Shown piece after piece: positions 8,283-62,540 of a DNA stretch of 64,000 nucleotides. Numbering within the stretch: position 1 is the stretch's first letter; every line of letters begins with the position of its first letter. The translations under genes and the position numbers were made by a program. Source of the DNA: Gammaproteobacteria bacterium (GTDB taxonomy: Bacteria > Pseudomonadota > Gammaproteobacteria > Arenicellales > UBA868); contig JAKUQS010000012.1 of assembly GCA_022451485.1 (NCBI GenBank), positions 1 through 64,000 of the forward strand. The letters run 5' to 3'. Below the pieces are notes generated by a model. That model worked only from the letters and a program-made list of their open reading frames with translations, did no database searches and was not told the origin of the DNA.

Positions 8283-8690
8283 ATGTCTTATGCGCTTGAA
8301 CGTTGGCACGCGATCTGCGATGAACGCGACCCTGCGGGCCTCAATACTCTGATCGCGGAAAACGCCGTTTTCTTCTCGCCTGTGGTGTATACCCCACAGG
8401 CGGGCAAAGCCAAAGTGATTGGATACCTGAAGGCAGCAGCTGAGATTCTCTTTAATGACAGTTTTCGATATGTGCGCGAGCTGCGTGGAACTAGCGAGGC
8501 TATGCTTGAATTCACAGTCACTATTGAAGGCATCGAAGTCAATGGTATCGACCTGATCCTCTGGAATATGAATCAGGAAATCACCGAATTTCGAGTCTGG
8601 TTACGCCCGCTTAAGGGACTGGAAATAGTCCAGCAACTCATGGCAACCAAACTCAGTGCCCAACGCGATGCAGCACAGAAGACGCAATGA
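8283..8690 (+). CDS. SnoaL-like (NTF2 fold) protein
   Basis: A 135-residue single-domain protein with the pattern of the SnoaL/ketosteroid-isomerase-like NTF2 fold: an N-terminal helix with LERWHAICDERD, then NTLIAENAVFFSPV and a C-terminal strand run ending in EFRVWLRP. Members are isomerases, cyclases, hydratases or non-catalytic binding proteins, and no specific catalytic set can be assigned here. Its stop abuts the start of the racemase-like gene with no gap, and a lyase follows, so these three form a tight operon. It probably acts on the same unknown metabolite (inference). Confidence 0.7.
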   Translation: MSYALERWHAICDERDPAGLNTLIAENAVFFSPVVYTPQAGKAKVIGYLKAAAEILFNDSFRYVRELRGTSEAMLEFTVTIEGIEVNGIDLILWNMNQEITEFRVWLRPLKGLEIVQQLMATKLSAQRDAAQKTQ

Positions 8691-9440
8691 ATGCGAATAT
8701 TACTGATCAATCCGAACACATCCGTTAGCATTACCGATCGATTAATGGCGTCGGCTTCTGCCGCTATATCAAGCGACACCGAGCTCGTGCCCGTTACAGC
8801 GGACCGCGGCGTCCCCTATATTGCCTCCCGTATCGAAGCGGCGATCGCTAGCAACGTGGTGATGGAATTGCTAGCTGAGCATAGCAACGGTATTGACGGC
8901 GCCATCATCGCCGCTTTTGGAGACCCGGGGCTCGGCGCTGCCAGAGAGCTCATGGATTACCCCGTCGTAGGATTGGCTGAGACTGGCATGTTGACCGCTT
9001 GTATGGTGGGAAAACGCTTTTCCATTGTCAGTTTTGCGCGGGCACTGGCTCCTTGGTATCGGGAAACAGTGGAATGGCACCAGCTCGTTGACCGGTTAGC
9101 CAGCATTCGAATGCCTGATACGGACTTTAGTAACATTAACGATGTCCAAACTGAAATGCAGACAACGCTGGTCGCTCTTGCTCAATCTGCCGTAACAGAA
9201 GATCAGGCTGACGTTATTGTTTTTGGCGGGGCCCCGCTGAGCGGGTTGGTAAAAGAAGTAATAAACGAGATTCCTGTGCCTGTGATTGATTGTGCGGCAG
9301 CCGCCGTGATGCAGCTTGAAACACTCATTCGACTTCAGCTGCGTCGCCCTGTCGCAGGCACCTTTCGCCGACCCCCAGCGAAACCCTCGACAGGACTAAC
9401 GTCTGAACTGGCACGACGCATTGGTCACCAGGACAATTAA
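8691..9440 (+). CDS. Hydantoin/Asp-Glu racemase family protein lacking both catalytic cysteines
   Basis: A 249-residue member of the HyuE-like branch of the Asp/Glu racemase superfamily, with the N-terminal ILLINPNTS and a conserved FGDPGLGAARE. In active hydantoin racemases two cysteines (ACF-DPG and LGCAG motifs) swap the alpha proton. Here the first position is Ala75 (IIAAFGDPG) and the second is Gly180 (VFGGAPL). The fold motifs are otherwise kept, so the change looks like functional divergence rather than decay. It lies between a SnoaL-like protein and an argininosuccinate-lyase-superfamily enzyme. It may be a decarboxylase, an isomerase of another type or a binding protein; simple two-base racemisation is unlikely. 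Confidence 0.8.
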   Translation: MRILLINPNTSVSITDRLMASASAAISSDTELVPVTADRGVPYIASRIEAAIASNVVMELLAEHSNGIDGAIIAAFGDPGLGAARELMDYPVVGLAETGMLTACMVGKRFSIVSFARALAPWYRETVEWHQLVDRLASIRMPDTDFSNINDVQTEMQTTLVALAQSAVTEDQADVIVFGGAPLSGLVKEVINEIPVPVIDCAAAAVMQLETLIRLQLRRPVAGTFRRPPAKPSTGLTSELARRIGHQDN

Positions 9441-9458
9441 CCTAACCGGAAACCTGTG

Positions 9459-10820
9459 ATGCCCAGCCATATCACCGAATCGGACCTTTACGGCAGTTCG
9501 TTTTCGACGCCTGAATTCATTGCTATCTTTAATGATCGCAACCGTGTCCAAAAGTGGTTCGATGTCGAAGCGGCGCTTGCAGAAGCCCAGGGAGAGCTGG
9601 GCATGATCCCGACCGATGCAGCGGCTGAGATCAGTGCGCGAGCACGCGTTGAAAACATCGACATCAAGGCCATCGGTCTGGACATTGCGGCCACTGCCCA
9701 TCCCCTCGTACCCGTTGTCCGAGCGCTACAGAACGCGTGTGAAGCCAGTGCAGGTGAATTTGTGCACTACGGTGCCACCACCCAGGACATCATGGACACG
9801 GGCATGGTGCTACAGATCAAAGAAGCCTGGCCACTGCTGCTTCGTGACATCAAAGCGAGTCGCTCTGCCCTAACCGAACTTGCGCAAACCCACCGCGCTA
9901 CCCCAATGGCAGGGCGCACTCATGGCCAACAGGCACTCCCCATCACCTTTGGTTACAAATGTGCCGTTTGGATCGACGAGATAAACCGGCAGCTACAACG
10001 TTGCACTGAAGCCGAGACGCGAATCTTCACCGGCAATATCACCGGTGCCGTCGGCACAATGGCTTCGTTCGGTGCACAGGGGCGGGCCATGCAGGCGCTG
10101 ACGCTGCACAAGCTCGACCTTTTATCGCCAACGATCTGCTGGCACTCTGCACGCGATCGAGTGATGGAACTGGCCAACCTCATTAACCAGATCGCAGGCA
10201 CCTTCGGAAAAATTGCCCGAGAAATCTACGCCCTGCAGCAGGTCGAGTTTGGTGAGGTCGCCGAACCGAACTCCCCTGGCAAAGTCGGCAGTAGCACCAT
10301 GCCACATAAACGAAACCCCGCCATGGTCGAAGTCTCAATCAGCCTGTCGCGACTGATTCGTGCCCAACAGGTGGCCTTGACAGACGCAGCATTTCAGGAA
10401 CATGAGCGGTATTCAGCGCTCTTACGAATCGAACTCGCTGCTATTCCGGAGATGATGATTTACTGCGGTGCCTTGCTGGCCAAGATGCGGACCGTACTTG
10501 AGCAACTGGTTGTGTATCCCGCTCGCATGCGCGCCAATCTCGATTTATTAGGTGGCCTATTGATGTCAGAGCGAGTGATGCTGGCGCTTGGCAAAACTTT
10601 AGGCAAACAGAGCGCACACGAAATTGTTCACGAGCTTGCCATGATGGCTTTTGAAAAAAAACAGCTGTTTCGAGATGTTCTGCTCGGGGACCCGCGTGTA
10701 ACAGAGCATCTGGATGCCGGTATGATTGATGAACTGCTCGACCCCATCGGTTATCTGGGTGAAGCAATGCAACTCGTCGACGATGTGCTAACAAACGCCT
10801 CAGCCATTGGGGACAAATAA
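9459..10820 (+). CDS. Fumarase/aspartase superfamily lyase (PurB/CMLE-like)
   Basis: A 453-residue lyase. The superfamily signature GSSTMPHKRNP is intact, with the catalytic Ser loop. VHYGATTQD and AGRTHGQQA supply the other conserved substrate-binding segments. The family eliminates fumarate or related acids from substituted succinates (adenylosuccinate lyase) or cycloisomerises carboxymuconate. The gene sits in a three-gene operon behind SnoaL-like and racemase-like genes, not among purine genes, so a catabolic role such as 3-carboxymuconate cycloisomerase or aminosuccinate lyase is favoured (inference). The start is the ATG at 9459; a GTG lies one codon upstream. Confidence 0.85.
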   Translation: MPSHITESDLYGSSFSTPEFIAIFNDRNRVQKWFDVEAALAEAQGELGMIPTDAAAEISARARVENIDIKAIGLDIAATAHPLVPVVRALQNACEASAGEFVHYGATTQDIMDTGMVLQIKEAWPLLLRDIKASRSALTELAQTHRATPMAGRTHGQQALPITFGYKCAVWIDEINRQLQRCTEAETRIFTGNITGAVGTMASFGAQGRAMQALTLHKLDLLSPTICWHSARDRVMELANLINQIAGTFGKIAREIYALQQVEFGEVAEPNSPGKVGSSTMPHKRNPAMVEVSISLSRLIRAQQVALTDAAFQEHERYSALLRIELAAIPEMMIYCGALLAKMRTVLEQLVVYPARMRANLDLLGGLLMSERVMLALGKTLGKQSAHEIVHELAMMAFEKKQLFRDVLLGDPRVTEHLDAGMIDELLDPIGYLGEAMQLVDDVLTNASAIGDK

Positions 10821-22313: not shown

Positions 22314-23072
22314 ATGTCACAATCTTTACACGCAGATGTTCTTGGCTGGCGCCGAAAAATCGGTGTCGTAGTTCCTGCAACCAATACCATCGTGGAACCC
22401 GAATTTCACCAAATGGCACCAGAGGGAATCACCAACCATACCAACCGATTTCAACTCAGTAATATGAGCCTAAACAGCGATGCCGACTTCCTTCGTATGG
22501 TCAGGGAGATAGAAGCAAATTTAGACGTTGCTATCGATGGTTTAGTTCCAGCAGCTCCAGACCATATTATTATTGGGATTTCAGCCGAGTCATTCTGGGA
22601 TGGCGCCGACGGTGCCGCAGCCCTCAAAGAGCGGCTAAGCCAACGTGCTGGTGTGCCGATCACACTTGGCTCGGATGCTGTCCGCCTAGCCATCACGGCG
22701 GTTAACGCCCAACGTATCGCTGTGCTTACCCCTTACTGGCCGATTGCTGATGAGCGTGTATGTCAGTATTTTGGCCAGTGTGGACTTGATGTTCGACGAA
22801 TAATCGGCCTGAAGGCGACCAGCCCAATCAATATTGCTGAGCAGAGCGCCGACACGTTGGAACAAACATTGGATGATCTTAATGGCGACGATGTCGATGC
22901 TATCGTCCAAGTTGGGACGAATCTTGGAATGGCCAAAATCGCTGCAACCACTGAACAATTACTTGGAAAGCCAGTCATTGCCATCAATACTGCGTTGTAC
23001 TGGCACGCACTGAGATCGATGGGGATTGATGACACGATCTACAACTTTGGCCAGTTGTTGGAGCGACATTAA
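22314..23072 (+). CDS. Maleate isomerase/arylmalonate decarboxylase family protein lacking both cysteines
   Basis: A 252-residue protein with the family opening IGVVVPATNT and the VLTPYWP segment of the Asp/Glu racemase-like fold. The two active-site cysteine positions (GCTTGS and CSCTAW in the relative at 32.4-33.2 kb) read GISAES (Ile89) and VGTNLG (Gly201) here. Arylmalonate decarboxylase needs only the second Cys, so loss of both points to a different chemistry. The rest aligns closely, including SFWDG. A TauE, MFS and DUF4864 run follows on the same strand. Function unknown. Confidence 0.8.
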   Translation: MSQSLHADVLGWRRKIGVVVPATNTIVEPEFHQMAPEGITNHTNRFQLSNMSLNSDADFLRMVREIEANLDVAIDGLVPAAPDHIIIGISAESFWDGADGAAALKERLSQRAGVPITLGSDAVRLAITAVNAQRIAVLTPYWPIADERVCQYFGQCGLDVRRIIGLKATSPINIAEQSADTLEQTLDDLNGDDVDAIVQVGTNLGMAKIAATTEQLLGKPVIAINTALYWHALRSMGIDDTIYNFGQLLERH

Positions 23073-32437: not shown

Positions 32438-33166
32438 TCAATGCATCAAGCCCGACAGCAAACTACCGAATCCACTGACTGCAGGTTGAATGCCCAGCCG
32501 ATCGAAGGCAGCCCACACCGTGGCCTGATTGGAGGTGACCACTGGTCGACCCGTTTCGTTCTCAAGTGCCTCTGCAGCTTCCATCGAACGCCAAGCGGTG
32601 CACGAGCAAAAAAGCACATCTGCCTCTGGTGAACAAACGCTCGAGGCAAATTCGACTACTCGGTCAGGATGCTGATCGTTGTAACCCTGATTACCCGCAT
32701 CGCTCGCCACCGGATCCCCGTCCACGTTCAAGACGTCGAACCCCATGTTTTCAAAATAAGAACGCAGGCGAACATTAGCCCATTCGGGATAAGGGCTGGC
32801 AACAGAAATCTTTTTTGCATTGAAATGCTGCAACGCCTGTACTACTGCCGGACTGGTACCTATCGCTGGTACACCCGCCTCTCGCTCGACAAGCGTAATC
32901 ATCTCTTGATCCCAACCCGGACCCTTGTAGAAACTACCGGTGGTGCATCCATAAACGATCAAGTTGACACCTGCCGTCGCAAGATAACGTGCACTGTTCT
33001 CAATCTCCGCGTTCATCCGTTCCATGCCAGATTCATCTGTCGCGTCATTCGTTAACCACATTCTCTGTCCGTGAATCGTCACATTTGTGGGCGCAACGGA
33101 TTGAAAATCGGCTTCACAAGTGGTGTTAGTTGATGGCACCACCACGCCAATTCGAGTTCTGGTCAT
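32438..33166 (-). CDS. Maleate isomerase family protein with both cysteines
   Basis: A 242-residue Asp/Glu racemase-like protein of the maleate isomerase family. The opening RIGVVVPSTNT and central ASPYPEWA are shared with the gene at 22.3 kb. Both active-site cysteines are present: C74 in YGCTTGS and C189 in CSCTAW. These form the thiol pair that adds to the double bond of maleate or racemises substrates. Maleate isomerase or a related racemase is the best call. It is transcribed away from the Gfo/Idh/MocA gene (89-base gap) and lies 167 bases before the deiodinase-like gene. Confidence 0.8.
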   Translation of the reverse strand: MTRTRIGVVVPSTNTTCEADFQSVAPTNVTIHGQRMWLTNDATDESGMERMNAEIENSARYLATAGVNLIVYGCTTGSFYKGPGWDQEMITLVEREAGVPAIGTSPAVVQALQHFNAKKISVASPYPEWANVRLRSYFENMGFDVLNVDGDPVASDAGNQGYNDQHPDRVVEFASSVCSPEADVLFCSCTAWRSMEAAEALENETGRPVVTSNQATVWAAFDRLGIQPAVSGFGSLLSGLMH

Positions 33167-57934: not shown

Positions 57935-58630
57935 TCAAGCCGCTAGGACCGTCGTTTGCCTCAATCGCACGGCTGCGATTGCCTGCACGACCGCCGCCTG
58001 AGCAGGATCAATGACTGGGACACCCAGCCCGCGCTCGATGCTCTCACGGTGGCGTGCCATTCCTGCACAACCCAGAATCAACACATCGGCACCCTTCGTT
58101 TCAATCAGTTCACGTCCCGTCGCCTCCAGGAGCTCACCGGTAGAGGGACCTTCTAGTTCAGTAACCCCAAGTCCCACCGCCTGACTTGCCGCATAGCGTT
58201 GCACAAGACCCAGTTCAGTGACGTAACGCTCCTGACGTGTCACGGATGCCGGTAGGATGGCAATCACGCCAAAACTCTGGCCATAATTTAATGCCATTGA
58301 AAACGCACTCTCAGCAATACCAAATACGGGCACGTCAGTAAGTTCGCGTGCTGACCGTAATCCCGGATCACTAAAACAGGCAATGACAAAGGCATCAACA
58401 CCCACGGCTTCATCTTTCACCAATTGACAGATTCGTCCCACGGCATCATCAACATGCTCCTGCGTCTCAATACCCGGTGGCCCTTCCGACATCGTCACAC
58501 AATCAATATGCGGACCACCGTCGAGCCTCAACGGGTCAAGTGCAATATTCATTGCGTCCGTCACAGCGTCCGATGAATTTGGATTAATCACAACAATCCG
58601 GCCATTGCCGCTGTCTTGATTACCAGTCAT
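57935..58630 (-). CDS. hyuE: Hydantoin racemase
   Basis: A 231-residue hydantoin racemase. The two catalytic cysteines are present: C85 in IACFSDPG and C188 in LGCAGMARH, the exact motif pair of HyuE, and the VINPNSS opening is typical. It interconverts D- and L-5-substituted hydantoins. It is 24 bases downstream of the hydantoinase gene on the same strand and completes a hydantoin-processing unit. The cysteine-free relative at 8.7 kb is the useful contrast. Confidence 0.9.
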   Translation of the reverse strand: MTGNQDSGNGRIVVINPNSSDAVTDAMNIALDPLRLDGGPHIDCVTMSEGPPGIETQEHVDDAVGRICQLVKDEAVGVDAFVIACFSDPGLRSARELTDVPVFGIAESAFSMALNYGQSFGVIAILPASVTRQERYVTELGLVQRYAASQAVGLGVTELEGPSTGELLEATGRELIETKGADVLILGCAGMARHRESIERGLGVPVIDPAQAAVVQAIAAVRLRQTTVLAA

Positions 58631-58654
58631 GGCTCCGCTTGTTGGGGGTTCCGT

Positions 58655-60124
58655 TTATGGCAAGAGGTCCGCGCCAAAATTTCTGGCAGGATCCATTTCG
58701 GGCACCAGTCTACCCAGCGGCTGTGCAGCTTGGGAAAGACTACGACTAACAAACTGGCCACTACCGCGATCGACCTTGAGATCGCCATCTTCAACAACAA
58801 CATTGCCTCGACTTAAGACCATCACGGGCCAACCTTTAACCTGACGACCTTCGTAAGGGGTATACCCTACATTATCGTGCAGCAGGTCCCACGTCACCGT
58901 AAGTTCCTTGTCTGGATCCCAAATCGCGATATCGGCGTCCGAACCCACTGCAATCGTCCCTTTACGTGGATGAAGTCCATAAATTTTCGCGACATTGGTC
59001 GAAGTCAACGCGACAAACCGGTGAATGTCGATACGACCTTTACCAACTCCCTCCGAAAACAGTAACGGTAGCCGCAATTCGATACCGGGAACGCCATTGG
59101 CAATTTGCGGAAACGTCGGGTTGGGACCAGCAGCCAACTTCCCAGTATGATCAAAACGATAGGGTGCATGATCAGACGAAAAAACCTGAAAAGTCCCATT
59201 AGAAATTCCGCGCCAAATAACCTGGTGATTGGCTTCATCTCTCGGCGGCGGGCTACAGCAAAACTTGGCGCCCTCTGCCCCGTCACGATCAAGATCAGAC
59301 TGCGTCAAAAACAAATATTGTGGGCAAGTCTCTCCATAGATCTTCAAGCCTGACGTCTGTGCTCGCCGAATCTCTTCCATTGCGTCTTCGGCTGACACGT
59401 GCACCAACAAGATGGGCACATCCATTAACTGCGACAACCGAATGGCGCGGTGCGTTGCCTCACCTTCAGCGATATCAGCATGACTAATGGCATGAAACTT
59501 TGGCGCGACATAACCGCCACTCAGCAGCCGATCGGTTAGCCATTTGATCATGTCATGATTCTCGGCGTGAATCATAACCATCGCGCCACAACGCCTGGCA
59601 GTCGACAACACCTCAAGCATCTGGCGATCATCCAACTTTAGACTGTCGTAGGTCATGTAAACCTTGAAAGACGGCATCCCGTCAGCAACCAACGCCGGAA
59701 GATCCTGGCCCAAGACCTGCTCAGTGGGGTCAGAAATGATTAAATGAAATCCATAATCGATAACAGCTTTTGGGCGAGCACATTCATGATAATCCTGAAC
59801 CGTTTTACGCAAGGGTTCTCCAGGAATCTGCTGCGCAAAAGACAGAGTAGTTGTCGTGCCCCCAAAGACTGCCGAACGCGTACCAGTATAAAAATCATCC
59901 GCACTCATCACGCCGCCAACAGACGACTGCTGTTCAATGTGACAGTGCCCTTCAATGCCGCCTGGTAATACGAGTTTCCCAGTTGCATCGATGACCCGGT
60001 CGGCATCACTGAAATCACGCCCCAAGGCAGCAACACGGCCGTCGATAATGCCGACGTCGCACTCGGCCGAATCTGCCGCCGTTACCACTGTACCGCCTCT
60101 TATCACTGTGTCGAAATGCTTCAT
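58655..60124 (-). CDS. hyuA: D-hydantoinase/dihydropyrimidinase
   Basis: A 489-residue cyclic amidohydrolase. Metal ligands are His60 and His62 (EGHCH), carboxylated Lys154 (SFKVYMTY), His186 (IHAEN), His242 (LVHVSAE) and Asp318 (SSDHAP). It opens hydantoins or dihydropyrimidines to N-carbamoyl amino acids. The EGHCHIEQQ variant differs from the common PHTH form. The start ATG is at 60124. It is divergent from the carbamoylase gene with only 62 bases between them, and a palindrome is just upstream of its start. Confidence 0.9.
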   Translation of the reverse strand: MKHFDTVIRGGTVVTAADSAECDVGIIDGRVAALGRDFSDADRVIDATGKLVLPGGIEGHCHIEQQSSVGGVMSADDFYTGTRSAVFGGTTTTLSFAQQIPGEPLRKTVQDYHECARPKAVIDYGFHLIISDPTEQVLGQDLPALVADGMPSFKVYMTYDSLKLDDRQMLEVLSTARRCGAMVMIHAENHDMIKWLTDRLLSGGYVAPKFHAISHADIAEGEATHRAIRLSQLMDVPILLVHVSAEDAMEEIRRAQTSGLKIYGETCPQYLFLTQSDLDRDGAEGAKFCCSPPPRDEANHQVIWRGISNGTFQVFSSDHAPYRFDHTGKLAAGPNPTFPQIANGVPGIELRLPLLFSEGVGKGRIDIHRFVALTSTNVAKIYGLHPRKGTIAVGSDADIAIWDPDKELTVTWDLLHDNVGYTPYEGRQVKGWPVMVLSRGNVVVEDGDLKVDRGSGQFVSRSLSQAAQPLGRLVPEMDPARNFGADLLP

Positions 60125-60127
60125 ATC

Positions 60128-60138
60128 ATTACTGTAAT
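60128..60138. promoter_or_regulatory. Operator-like repeat ATTAC-T-GTAAT before the hydantoinase gene
   Basis: A perfect 11-base inverted repeat sits three bases upstream of the hydantoinase start, within the 62-base divergent gap that must also hold the carbamoylase promoter. Such short palindromes occur by chance, and no regulator gene is nearby, so this is weak evidence. Confidence 0.2.
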
Positions 60139-60186
60139 AAACTGTGGAAAAACATCCCTAGATCATAACCTGAATCGAGCATACTA

Positions 60187-61131
60187 ATGACAAGAACCAT
60201 TACCGTAGGAGCAGCCCAGTTAGGACCCATCCAACGAGACGAGGACCGAGTCGCCGTTGTGCGCCGTCTGGTGGCGCTGATGGAGAAAGGCCAGACCCGA
60301 GGCTGTCAATTCATCGTATTTCCAGAGCTGGCGCTAACCACATTTTTTCCGCGTTATTACATGGAGGACCAAACAGAAATCGATGAATGGTTCGAAACTT
60401 CAATCCCTAGCAACAGCACTCAACCATTGTTTGATGCCGCAAAACGCTATGGTATGGGGTTTCATTTGGGTTATGCCGAAAAGGTTGAAGAACAAGGAGT
60501 GGTTCATCGCTATAACACTGCCATTTTGGTCGAATCATCCGGTAACGTCATCGGAAAATATCGAAAAATTCATCTCCCCGGTCATGCTGAATTTGACCCA
60601 GACCGAGCTTTCCAACACCTTGAGAAACGCTACTTTGAAATCGGCAACCTGGGTTTCCCAGTATGGAAAATGTTCGATGGTTTAATGGGAATGTGTATTT
60701 GTAATGACCGGCGCTGGCCTGAGACTTTTCGTGTGATGGGCTTACAAGGGGTTGAGATGGTTGCCTTAGGTTACAACACGCCTACGGTCAATTCGCAATC
60801 AGATGAAGCACCGCACGTCCGTTCATTTCATAACCTGCTCTCGATGCAGGCGGGTGCTTATCAGAACAGCACCTGGGTGATTGGAGTAGCTAAAGCGGGT
60901 GACGAAGATGGCCACGAGTTAATGGGCGGGAGCGCGATCATTGCACCCAGCGGTGAAGTGGTGGCGCAGTGCATCACCCTTGAAGACGAACTCGTAGTGG
61001 CCGACTGTGACCTTGATCTATGTCACTTCGGAAAACAGACTGTGTTTGACTTCGCCCGCCATCGCAGAATCGAACATTACGGACTGATCACAGAACAAAC
61101 CGGTGTCGTGTTGCCGGACATGGAGCATTAA
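60187..61131 (+). CDS. N-carbamoyl-D-amino-acid hydrolase
   Basis: A 314-residue nitrilase-superfamily amidohydrolase. Catalytic Glu47 (FPELALTTFFPRYY), Lys127 (GKYRKIHLPG) and Cys172 (CICNDRRWPE) fall at the same residue numbers as in the well-studied Agrobacterium enzyme, and HAEFDPDR is shared. It releases a D-amino acid, CO2 and ammonia from N-carbamoyl-D-amino acids, following hydantoinase. Divergent from hydantoinase and followed after two bases by an amidase. Confidence 0.92.
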   Translation: MTRTITVGAAQLGPIQRDEDRVAVVRRLVALMEKGQTRGCQFIVFPELALTTFFPRYYMEDQTEIDEWFETSIPSNSTQPLFDAAKRYGMGFHLGYAEKVEEQGVVHRYNTAILVESSGNVIGKYRKIHLPGHAEFDPDRAFQHLEKRYFEIGNLGFPVWKMFDGLMGMCICNDRRWPETFRVMGLQGVEMVALGYNTPTVNSQSDEAPHVRSFHNLLSMQAGAYQNSTWVIGVAKAGDEDGHELMGGSAIIAPSGEVVAQCITLEDELVVADCDLDLCHFGKQTVFDFARHRRIEHYGLITEQTGVVLPDMEH

Positions 61132-61133
61132 CA

Positions 61134-62540
61134 ATGACGAACACTGATCTCTGTTATACCGCGGCTAGTGATCTCGCCGTGCTGATTGCCAATGGTGATC
61201 TATCTCCCGTCGAACTCATGCAAGAAACTATCGATCGCGTGGAAAGTCTTAACCCAGAACTGAACGCTATCTGCACGCCAACCCTGGACCAGGCAATGGA
61301 TGAAGCGCGACAAGCTGAAGCAGCCATTGCCGCTAAGGAGCCGCTGGGTCCGCTGCACGGCATTCCCACGACCATCAAAGACCTTGTCTGTACCCGTGGA
61401 GTTCGAACGATGATGGGCTCAAATATTTTTGCCGACCAAGTCCCTGATTTTGACGCCGTTGTTGTCAAACGCCTTAACGCGGCCGGTGCAATCAGTCTAG
61501 GCAAAACCACAGTGCCCGAATTCGGCTGGAAAGGCTGCAGCGACAGCCCGCTGACCGGTGTGTCGCATAACCCCTGGCAACACGGTATGAATGCCGGTGG
61601 CTCGAGCACTGGAGCTGCTATTTGCGCAGCAGCCGGTATCGGCCCATTACACCAAGGATCCGACGGCGCGGGGTCTATTCGAATGCCTGCTGCTTTCTGC
61701 GGAGTCTATGGCCTTAAACCCTCATTCGGTCGTGTGCCTTATTACCCCATCGGCAATAATGACCAGGTTTCTCACATCGGACCCATCACACGGACGGTAG
61801 CGGATGCCGCCTTGATGATGAACGTGATGGCGGGACCTGACGATCACGATCCGAGCAGCGCCGATGATCGGAATGTTGATTATCTGGCCAATCTCAATGA
61901 CGGAGTTGCCGGGTGGCGCGTCGCTTACAGTCCCGACCTTGGCTACTTACCGGTTGACCAGGAAGTAGCAGAATCAGTAGCAAAAGCGGTGAAAACCTTT
62001 GAAGGGTTAGGCGCCGATGTTCACGAAGTTGATCCTGGTTGGGGAGACCCTATCGAGATGGAGCATTTCTTTTGGACAGCTAACTTCGCCGGTAATCTGG
62101 GTCCTCATCTTGATCAGTGGGAAGAACAAATGGATCCCGGCTTAGTATCGTGCATCCGCGATGGCACACATCATCTCGCAACCGATTATGTCAGGATGAA
62201 ACAACGCCGGCTTGATTACCATGCGCGCGTGCTTGAGTTTTTTGAGAATTATGACCTGCTGCTGACACCGAGCCTGTCCGTCGCCGCCTTCCCTGTCGAG
62301 CGCCTAATTCCTGAACACTGGGAGCAACACCCCTGGGACTGGTTACGCTGGGCTGGATTTTCCTATCCCTTTAATCTGACCTGGCTACCCGCCGCCACCT
62401 GTCCCTCGGGTTTCACCCGCGGTGGCTTACCTGTGGGGCTGCAAATCGTTGGCGGGCACCGCCAAGATAAAAAGGTGCTGCAGGCTTCCCGCGCATTTGA
62501 GACGGCACAGCCGTGGGCTCAGCGCCGGCCGATTGAGTAA
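61134..62540 (+). CDS. Amidase signature family hydrolase
   Basis: A 468-residue amidase with Lys82 (TIKDLVC), Ser157/158 (AGGSSTG) and nucleophile Ser181 (DGAGSIRMPA). The start is two bases after the carbamoylase stop, so it is part of the hydantoin operon and may act on an amide or carbamoyl product (inference). A second amidase occurs at 17.4 kb with the same triad but different surroundings. The C-terminal GLPVGLQIVGG is typical. Confidence 0.88.
   Translation: MTNTDLCYTAASDLAVLIANGDLSPVELMQETIDRVESLNPELNAICTPTLDQAMDEARQAEAAIAAKEPLGPLHGIPTTIKDLVCTRGVRTMMGSNIFADQVPDFDAVVVKRLNAAGAISLGKTTVPEFGWKGCSDSPLTGVSHNPWQHGMNAGGSSTGAAICAAAGIGPLHQGSDGAGSIRMPAAFCGVYGLKPSFGRVPYYPIGNNDQVSHIGPITRTVADAALMMNVMAGPDDHDPSSADDRNVDYLANLNDGVAGWRVAYSPDLGYLPVDQEVAESVAKAVKTFEGLGADVHEVDPGWGDPIEMEHFFWTANFAGNLGPHLDQWEEQMDPGLVSCIRDGTHHLATDYVRMKQRRLDYHARVLEFFENYDLLLTPSLSVAAFPVERLIPEHWEQHPWDWLRWAGFSYPFNLTWLPAATCPSGFTRGGLPVGLQIVGGHRQDKKVLQASRAFETAQPWAQRRPIE

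Follow-up and report, generated by a model that had tools for sequence, protein, structure and literature searches.

The gene at 8691–9440 of the window, by which the whole analysed stretch of 64,000 nucleotides from a marine bacterium is meant, encodes an Asp/Glu/hydantoin-racemase-family protein with neither of the two catalytic cysteines. This Cys-less form of a known enzyme family is genuine and conserved. Because the former active site is highly conserved, the protein likely keeps a function, one changed from the racemase norm, as far as comparison of sequences can indicate. The relevant features are as follows.

8283–8690, forward strand: SnoaL/NTF2-like protein, first gene of the operon (SnoaL_2 match of 8.7e-6, just under the gathering cut-off; same place in four genomes)
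8691–9440, forward strand: Cys-less Asp/Glu/hydantoin-racemase-family protein of 249 amino acids (PF01177, alignments, AlphaFold model and fold search)
8907–8930, forward strand: codons 73–80, first catalytic-cysteine site, with Ala75 replacing the cysteine and the invariant Asp78
9222–9242, forward strand: codons 178–184 (FGGAPLS), second catalytic-cysteine site, with Gly180 replacing the cysteine
9459–10820, forward strand: fumarase/aspartase-superfamily lyase, third gene of the operon (Lyase_1 and ADSL_C matches, solved relatives)
57935–58630, reverse strand: two-Cys racemase homologue serving as the comparison copy (Cys85 and Cys188), with a D-hydantoinase homologue adjoining at 58655–60124

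The protein shows the Pfam family and the fold of the racemases and lacks their catalytic cysteine pair. Its match to Asp_Glu_race (PF01177) is 2e-40 and 139 bits, with a cut-off of 31. The AlphaFold model (pLDDT 96) superposes on allantoin racemases with a TM-score of 0.90, and by both sequence and fold its nearest solved structures are two allantoin racemases, that of Klebsiella (3qvj, 3qvk) and that of Pseudomonas (5lfd, 5lg5), at TM 0.87–0.90. The resemblance to Klebsiella pneumoniae KpAllR is considerable: the TM-score is 0.90, the identity is 35%, and both the NPN motif and the FGDPGL loop with its Asp are shared. Asn12, which binds the substrate in KpAllR, corresponds to Asn9 and is kept. 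The catalytic pair of KpAllR is Cys79 and Cys184 (PMC12661438). Opposite these are Ala75 (IIAAFGD) and Gly180 (VFGGAPL), and the alignment to 3qvj is ungapped at both active-site loops. The preliminary description had reported both replacements relative to the canonical copy in the window, and the alignments agree, with Cys85 and Cys188 of that copy at the matching sites. Another difference is seen in a loop that reads SIEGHFDE in KpAllR and YIASRIEA here. Besides the two replaced positions, Tyr43, Arg47 and Asp78 are residues of note in the protein.

Pseudomonas fluorescens AllR (5lfd, 5lg5; TM 0.87–0.89) also lacks the first cysteine, having Gly75, and carries an acid three residues further on, Glu78 instead of Asp78. 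This Glu78 reportedly takes the role of the missing cysteine. However, Pseudomonas AllR retains Cys180 and groups with the two-Cys racemases in the tree. The window protein, with Ala75, Asp78 and Gly180, is not of this type.

The only cysteines of the window protein are Cys104 and Cys201. Either would be an unlikely substitute in the active site, judging from the model and the conservation. An ordinary racemase relying on one of them is very improbable. Cys104 is present in 46 of 54 clade members, which speaks for such a role, but it is Ala or Ile in the other eight, and Cys201 is found in just nine of the 54. Moreover, in the AlphaFold model Cys104 lies about ten residues into the helix 95–106, at the far end from the strand ends which form the active site. 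Cysteines elsewhere in the active site, an outcome that would contradict the preliminary description, are thus unlikely.

A scan of one genome per species yielded 80 loci with 35 Ala75/Gly180 genes. With plasmid and further genome hits added, the clade comprises 54 distinct Ala75/Gly180/Arg47 sequences from alpha-, beta- and gammaproteobacteria and an Arthrobacter plasmid. The pairwise identity goes down to 25%, and Ala and Gly are kept in all 54 members, so that orthologues with a cysteine at position 75 or 180 are not found. Asn7-Pro8-Asn9, Tyr43, Arg47, Glu49, Asp78, Trp122, Tyr123 and Pro182 are nearly invariant, and the window protein carries the signature of the clade (Tyr43, Arg47, Glu49, Ala75, Asp78, Gly180-Ala-Pro). 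The two former cysteine loops and a loop next to them rank with the best conserved parts of the protein: the mean entropy is 0.63–0.66 bits at positions 40–50, 72–82 and 176–186 against 1.42 for the whole protein, to which the selection on positions 47, 75 and 180 contributes by construction. When the window is compared with two further genomes of its genus, dN/dS of the gene is 0.07–0.08, and the values for the other genes of the operon are higher (0.11–0.14 for the SnoaL-like gene and 0.095 for the lyase). Decay or sequencing error is ruled out by the presence in four genomes, the dN/dS of about 0.07 and the 54 distinct conserved homologues.

Columns 75, 179 and 180 were left out for a quick maximum-likelihood tree, which has several long branches. 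A branch with SH-aLRT support of 96 separates the two-Cys racemases, together with the one-Cys Pseudomonas AllR, from the Cys-less clade (35 rows, SH-aLRT 91), a one-Cys clade (Cys75/Gly180, 24 rows), a Val75/Cys179 group and small groups. One further Ala/Gly row is placed elsewhere on a long branch. Tyr43 and Arg47 mark most of the side with the Cys-less clade: 92 sequences have both, none of them with Cys180, and none of the 34 sequences with Cys180 has Arg47. As read from these sequences, the Tyr43/Arg47 pair is essentially the marker of one split with no independent replicates, and is not proof that Arg47 replaces Cys180.

The Val75 group has a cysteine at position 179 rather than 180. It is represented by L021:4109-4855 and its equivalents in L023, L024, L025, L030 and L031, and these genes are located near Cys-less and AMDase-like genes.

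The genomic context differs between the types. Of 39 Cys-less loci, 28 have a D-hydantoinase/dihydropyrimidinase homologue within 6 kb, against two of 21 two-Cys and three of 24 one-Cys loci. An AMDase-like gene is nearby in 25 of 39, none of 21 and one of 24 cases, respectively. Fisher's test gives p < 1e-5 in each comparison, though related loci do not count as independent. A matching context is seen on annotated plasmids, with amidases, TRAP or MFS transporters and GntR regulators in addition. Two of three hydantoinase neighbours taken as examples score above the curated D-hydantoinase cut-off. The AMDase-like neighbour matches PF17645, and the examples that were read have the GTS motif and a cysteine at the AMDase positions. 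A hydantoin-5-propionate pathway of the ergothioneine type was also considered and rejected; the scores of the hydantoinases fall far short of the ErtD cut-offs, and a literature search on this pathway yielded nothing of use. At two loci, L144:6923-8498 and L138:764-2253, an amidase and a hydantoinase gene flank a tandem of two different Cys-less racemase-family genes.

The one-Cys sister clade, found in Methylobacterium, Bradyrhizobium and others, shares Asp78, Gly180 and mostly Tyr43/Arg47 with the Cys-less clade, but keeps Cys75. Three of its four annotated examples are in urate/allantoin clusters (with uraH and uraD, or ureidoglycolate lyase). This context, too, points to ureide metabolism. 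The one-Cys proteins in such catabolic clusters, L147:7001-7738, L148:7001-7750 and L150:6995-7720, are possibly allantoin racemases whose cysteine loss is opposite to that of Pseudomonas AllR.

The window genus departs from the usual context of the clade, having a SnoaL-like gene and a lyase instead of a hydantoinase or AMDase-like gene. The SnoaL-like gene is followed by the racemase-like gene with no gap, and the lyase starts after 18 bp, or after 15 bp with the GTG at 9456 as the start codon. The operon is flanked by genes on the opposite strand, and scans for promoters and terminators gave nothing beyond chance. The order of the three genes is kept in the window and three other genomes of the genus. 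The tight operon noticed at the outset is confirmed in four genomes, and among the loci compared it is found only in this one genus.

The three conserved regions of the lyase are intact: GATTQD, GRTHGQ and GSSTMPHKRNP (GSSxMPxKxNP in the superfamily). It is not the housekeeping PurB, as a separate PurB (703 bits) is encoded on another contig. Against the XcbD profile it reaches 468 bits, with a cut-off of 600. Its identity to a Pantoea lyase is 46%, and the locus of the latter contains an acetyltransferase, an amino-acid ABC transporter and an amidohydrolase. Loci that break down S-(2-succino)cysteine by means of a succino lyase are reported to have such a layout (PMC9706529). On an E. coli plasmid (L122:5872-7303), a broken relative of the lyase adjoins an MmgE/PrpD gene, resembling an epimerase–lyase pair.

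The racemase–lyase pair is not a general module: no lyase is found within 6 kb at the 37 Cys-less loci outside the genus, and in a phylum sample the 29 loci with a relative of the lyase have no racemase within about 1.5 kb. The preliminary description had suggested new chemistry on a substrate also used by the lyase. The first part, a changed and retained function, agrees with the Ala/Gly pair in 54 of 54 members and with the conserved pocket. The tie to the substrate of the lyase is weakly supported, given the absence of the pair at the 37 and 29 loci and its restriction to one genus. Because Ala75 and Gly180 are common to the whole clade, these changes are older than the lyase operon. Outside the genus they accompany hydantoinase and AMDase-like genes, so the substrate is to be sought first among hydantoinase substrates.

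Judging from its conserved clade, whose genes usually lie beside ring-opening hydantoinases, the window protein probably performs chemistry related to that of the racemases by a different mechanism. We tentatively prefer a functional enzyme of the allantoin/hydantoin racemase family that transfers protons without thiols on a cyclic ureide or its ring-opened carboxylate, with Asp78 as the base. The reaction would be a cofactor-free racemisation, tautomerisation or other enolate-type isomerisation, and the substrate could be, for example, a 5-substituted hydantoin or the carboxylate derived from it. Exchange without thiols is plausible for a hydantoin because its C5 proton is acidic. Asp78 might serve as the general base in place of Cys75, by analogy with what is reported for Glu78 of Pseudomonas AllR. 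The clade-specific loop with Tyr43 and Arg47 may bind a carboxylate or help protonation in a pocket without Cys180. In the window genus, the gene would have been recruited into the three-gene operon beside the fumarase-superfamily lyase. Against this reading, Asp78 is equally invariant in the two-Cys racemases and hence need not be the base, no acid/base for the second face can be named with confidence, and the gene in the window genus is not beside a hydantoinase.

The lack of an obvious second base with Gly180 would fit another reaction in the same active site, which is somewhat unlikely: in a pocket with one base or none, where Arg47 would hold the carboxylate, a ureide-derived acid would be decarboxylated, hydrolysed or cleaved instead of exchanging a proton at a stereocentre. 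The newly invariant Arg47, Glu49, Trp122, Tyr123 and Pro182 suggest a re-made pocket, and AMDase, a member of the same superfamily with Gly74/Cys188, is a precedent in which the reaction changed once when a cysteine was lost (PMC4996985). However, the window protein has no PF17645 match, no dioxyanion-hole motif (Gly74-Thr75-Ser76) and no Cys188 of AMDase. The AMDase-like gene that often adjoins can be read both ways, as it could itself supply any decarboxylase needed. Loss of both catalytic residues is also what a non-catalytic protein would show, either a ligand-binding protein or a partner subunit of the hydantoinase, the lyase or the second racemase-family protein encoded nearby, and some loci have further superfamily genes arranged in tandem with it, among them another Cys-less gene (L138, L144). 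We regard this as unlikely; the partners vary between lineages, and the pocket loops are among the most conserved stretches and have gained new polar invariants, yet binding-only proteins can keep pockets too.

The tight operon in four genomes raises the idea of an epimerase that gives the lyase the right stereoisomer of a substituted succinate, as in the pair of iminodisuccinate epimerase and a C–N lyase. The similarity of the lyase to the Pantoea enzyme, whose locus resembles S-(2-succino)cysteine breakdown loci in layout, fits this idea, as does the lyase relative beside an MmgE/PrpD gene, which belongs to the family of iminodisuccinate epimerase. This role is nevertheless doubtful and improbable, since abstraction of an unactivated alpha-proton requires a strong base pair, which seems absent here. 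In addition, the pairing is confined to one genus, and no residue change sets the window lineage apart from hydantoinase-linked members.

To our knowledge, no activity has been described for any member of the clade, and a search of the open-access literature found no account of a Cys-less hydantoin-racemase clade. With its conserved alternative pocket and its hydantoinase/AMDase-like surroundings, this clade offers a definite starting point for learning how the fold works without thiols. Such genes should not be annotated as hydantoin racemases.

The comparison copy is part of a cluster at 57935–62540, in which genes for the two-Cys racemase, a dihydropyrimidinase, a carbon-nitrogen hydrolase and an amidase are gathered, likely a catabolic cluster for hydantoins or ureides. 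AMDase/maleate-isomerase-like genes (PF17645) are present at 22314–23072 and 32438–33166. The window contains four superfamily members in total, these two and the two PF01177 homologues.
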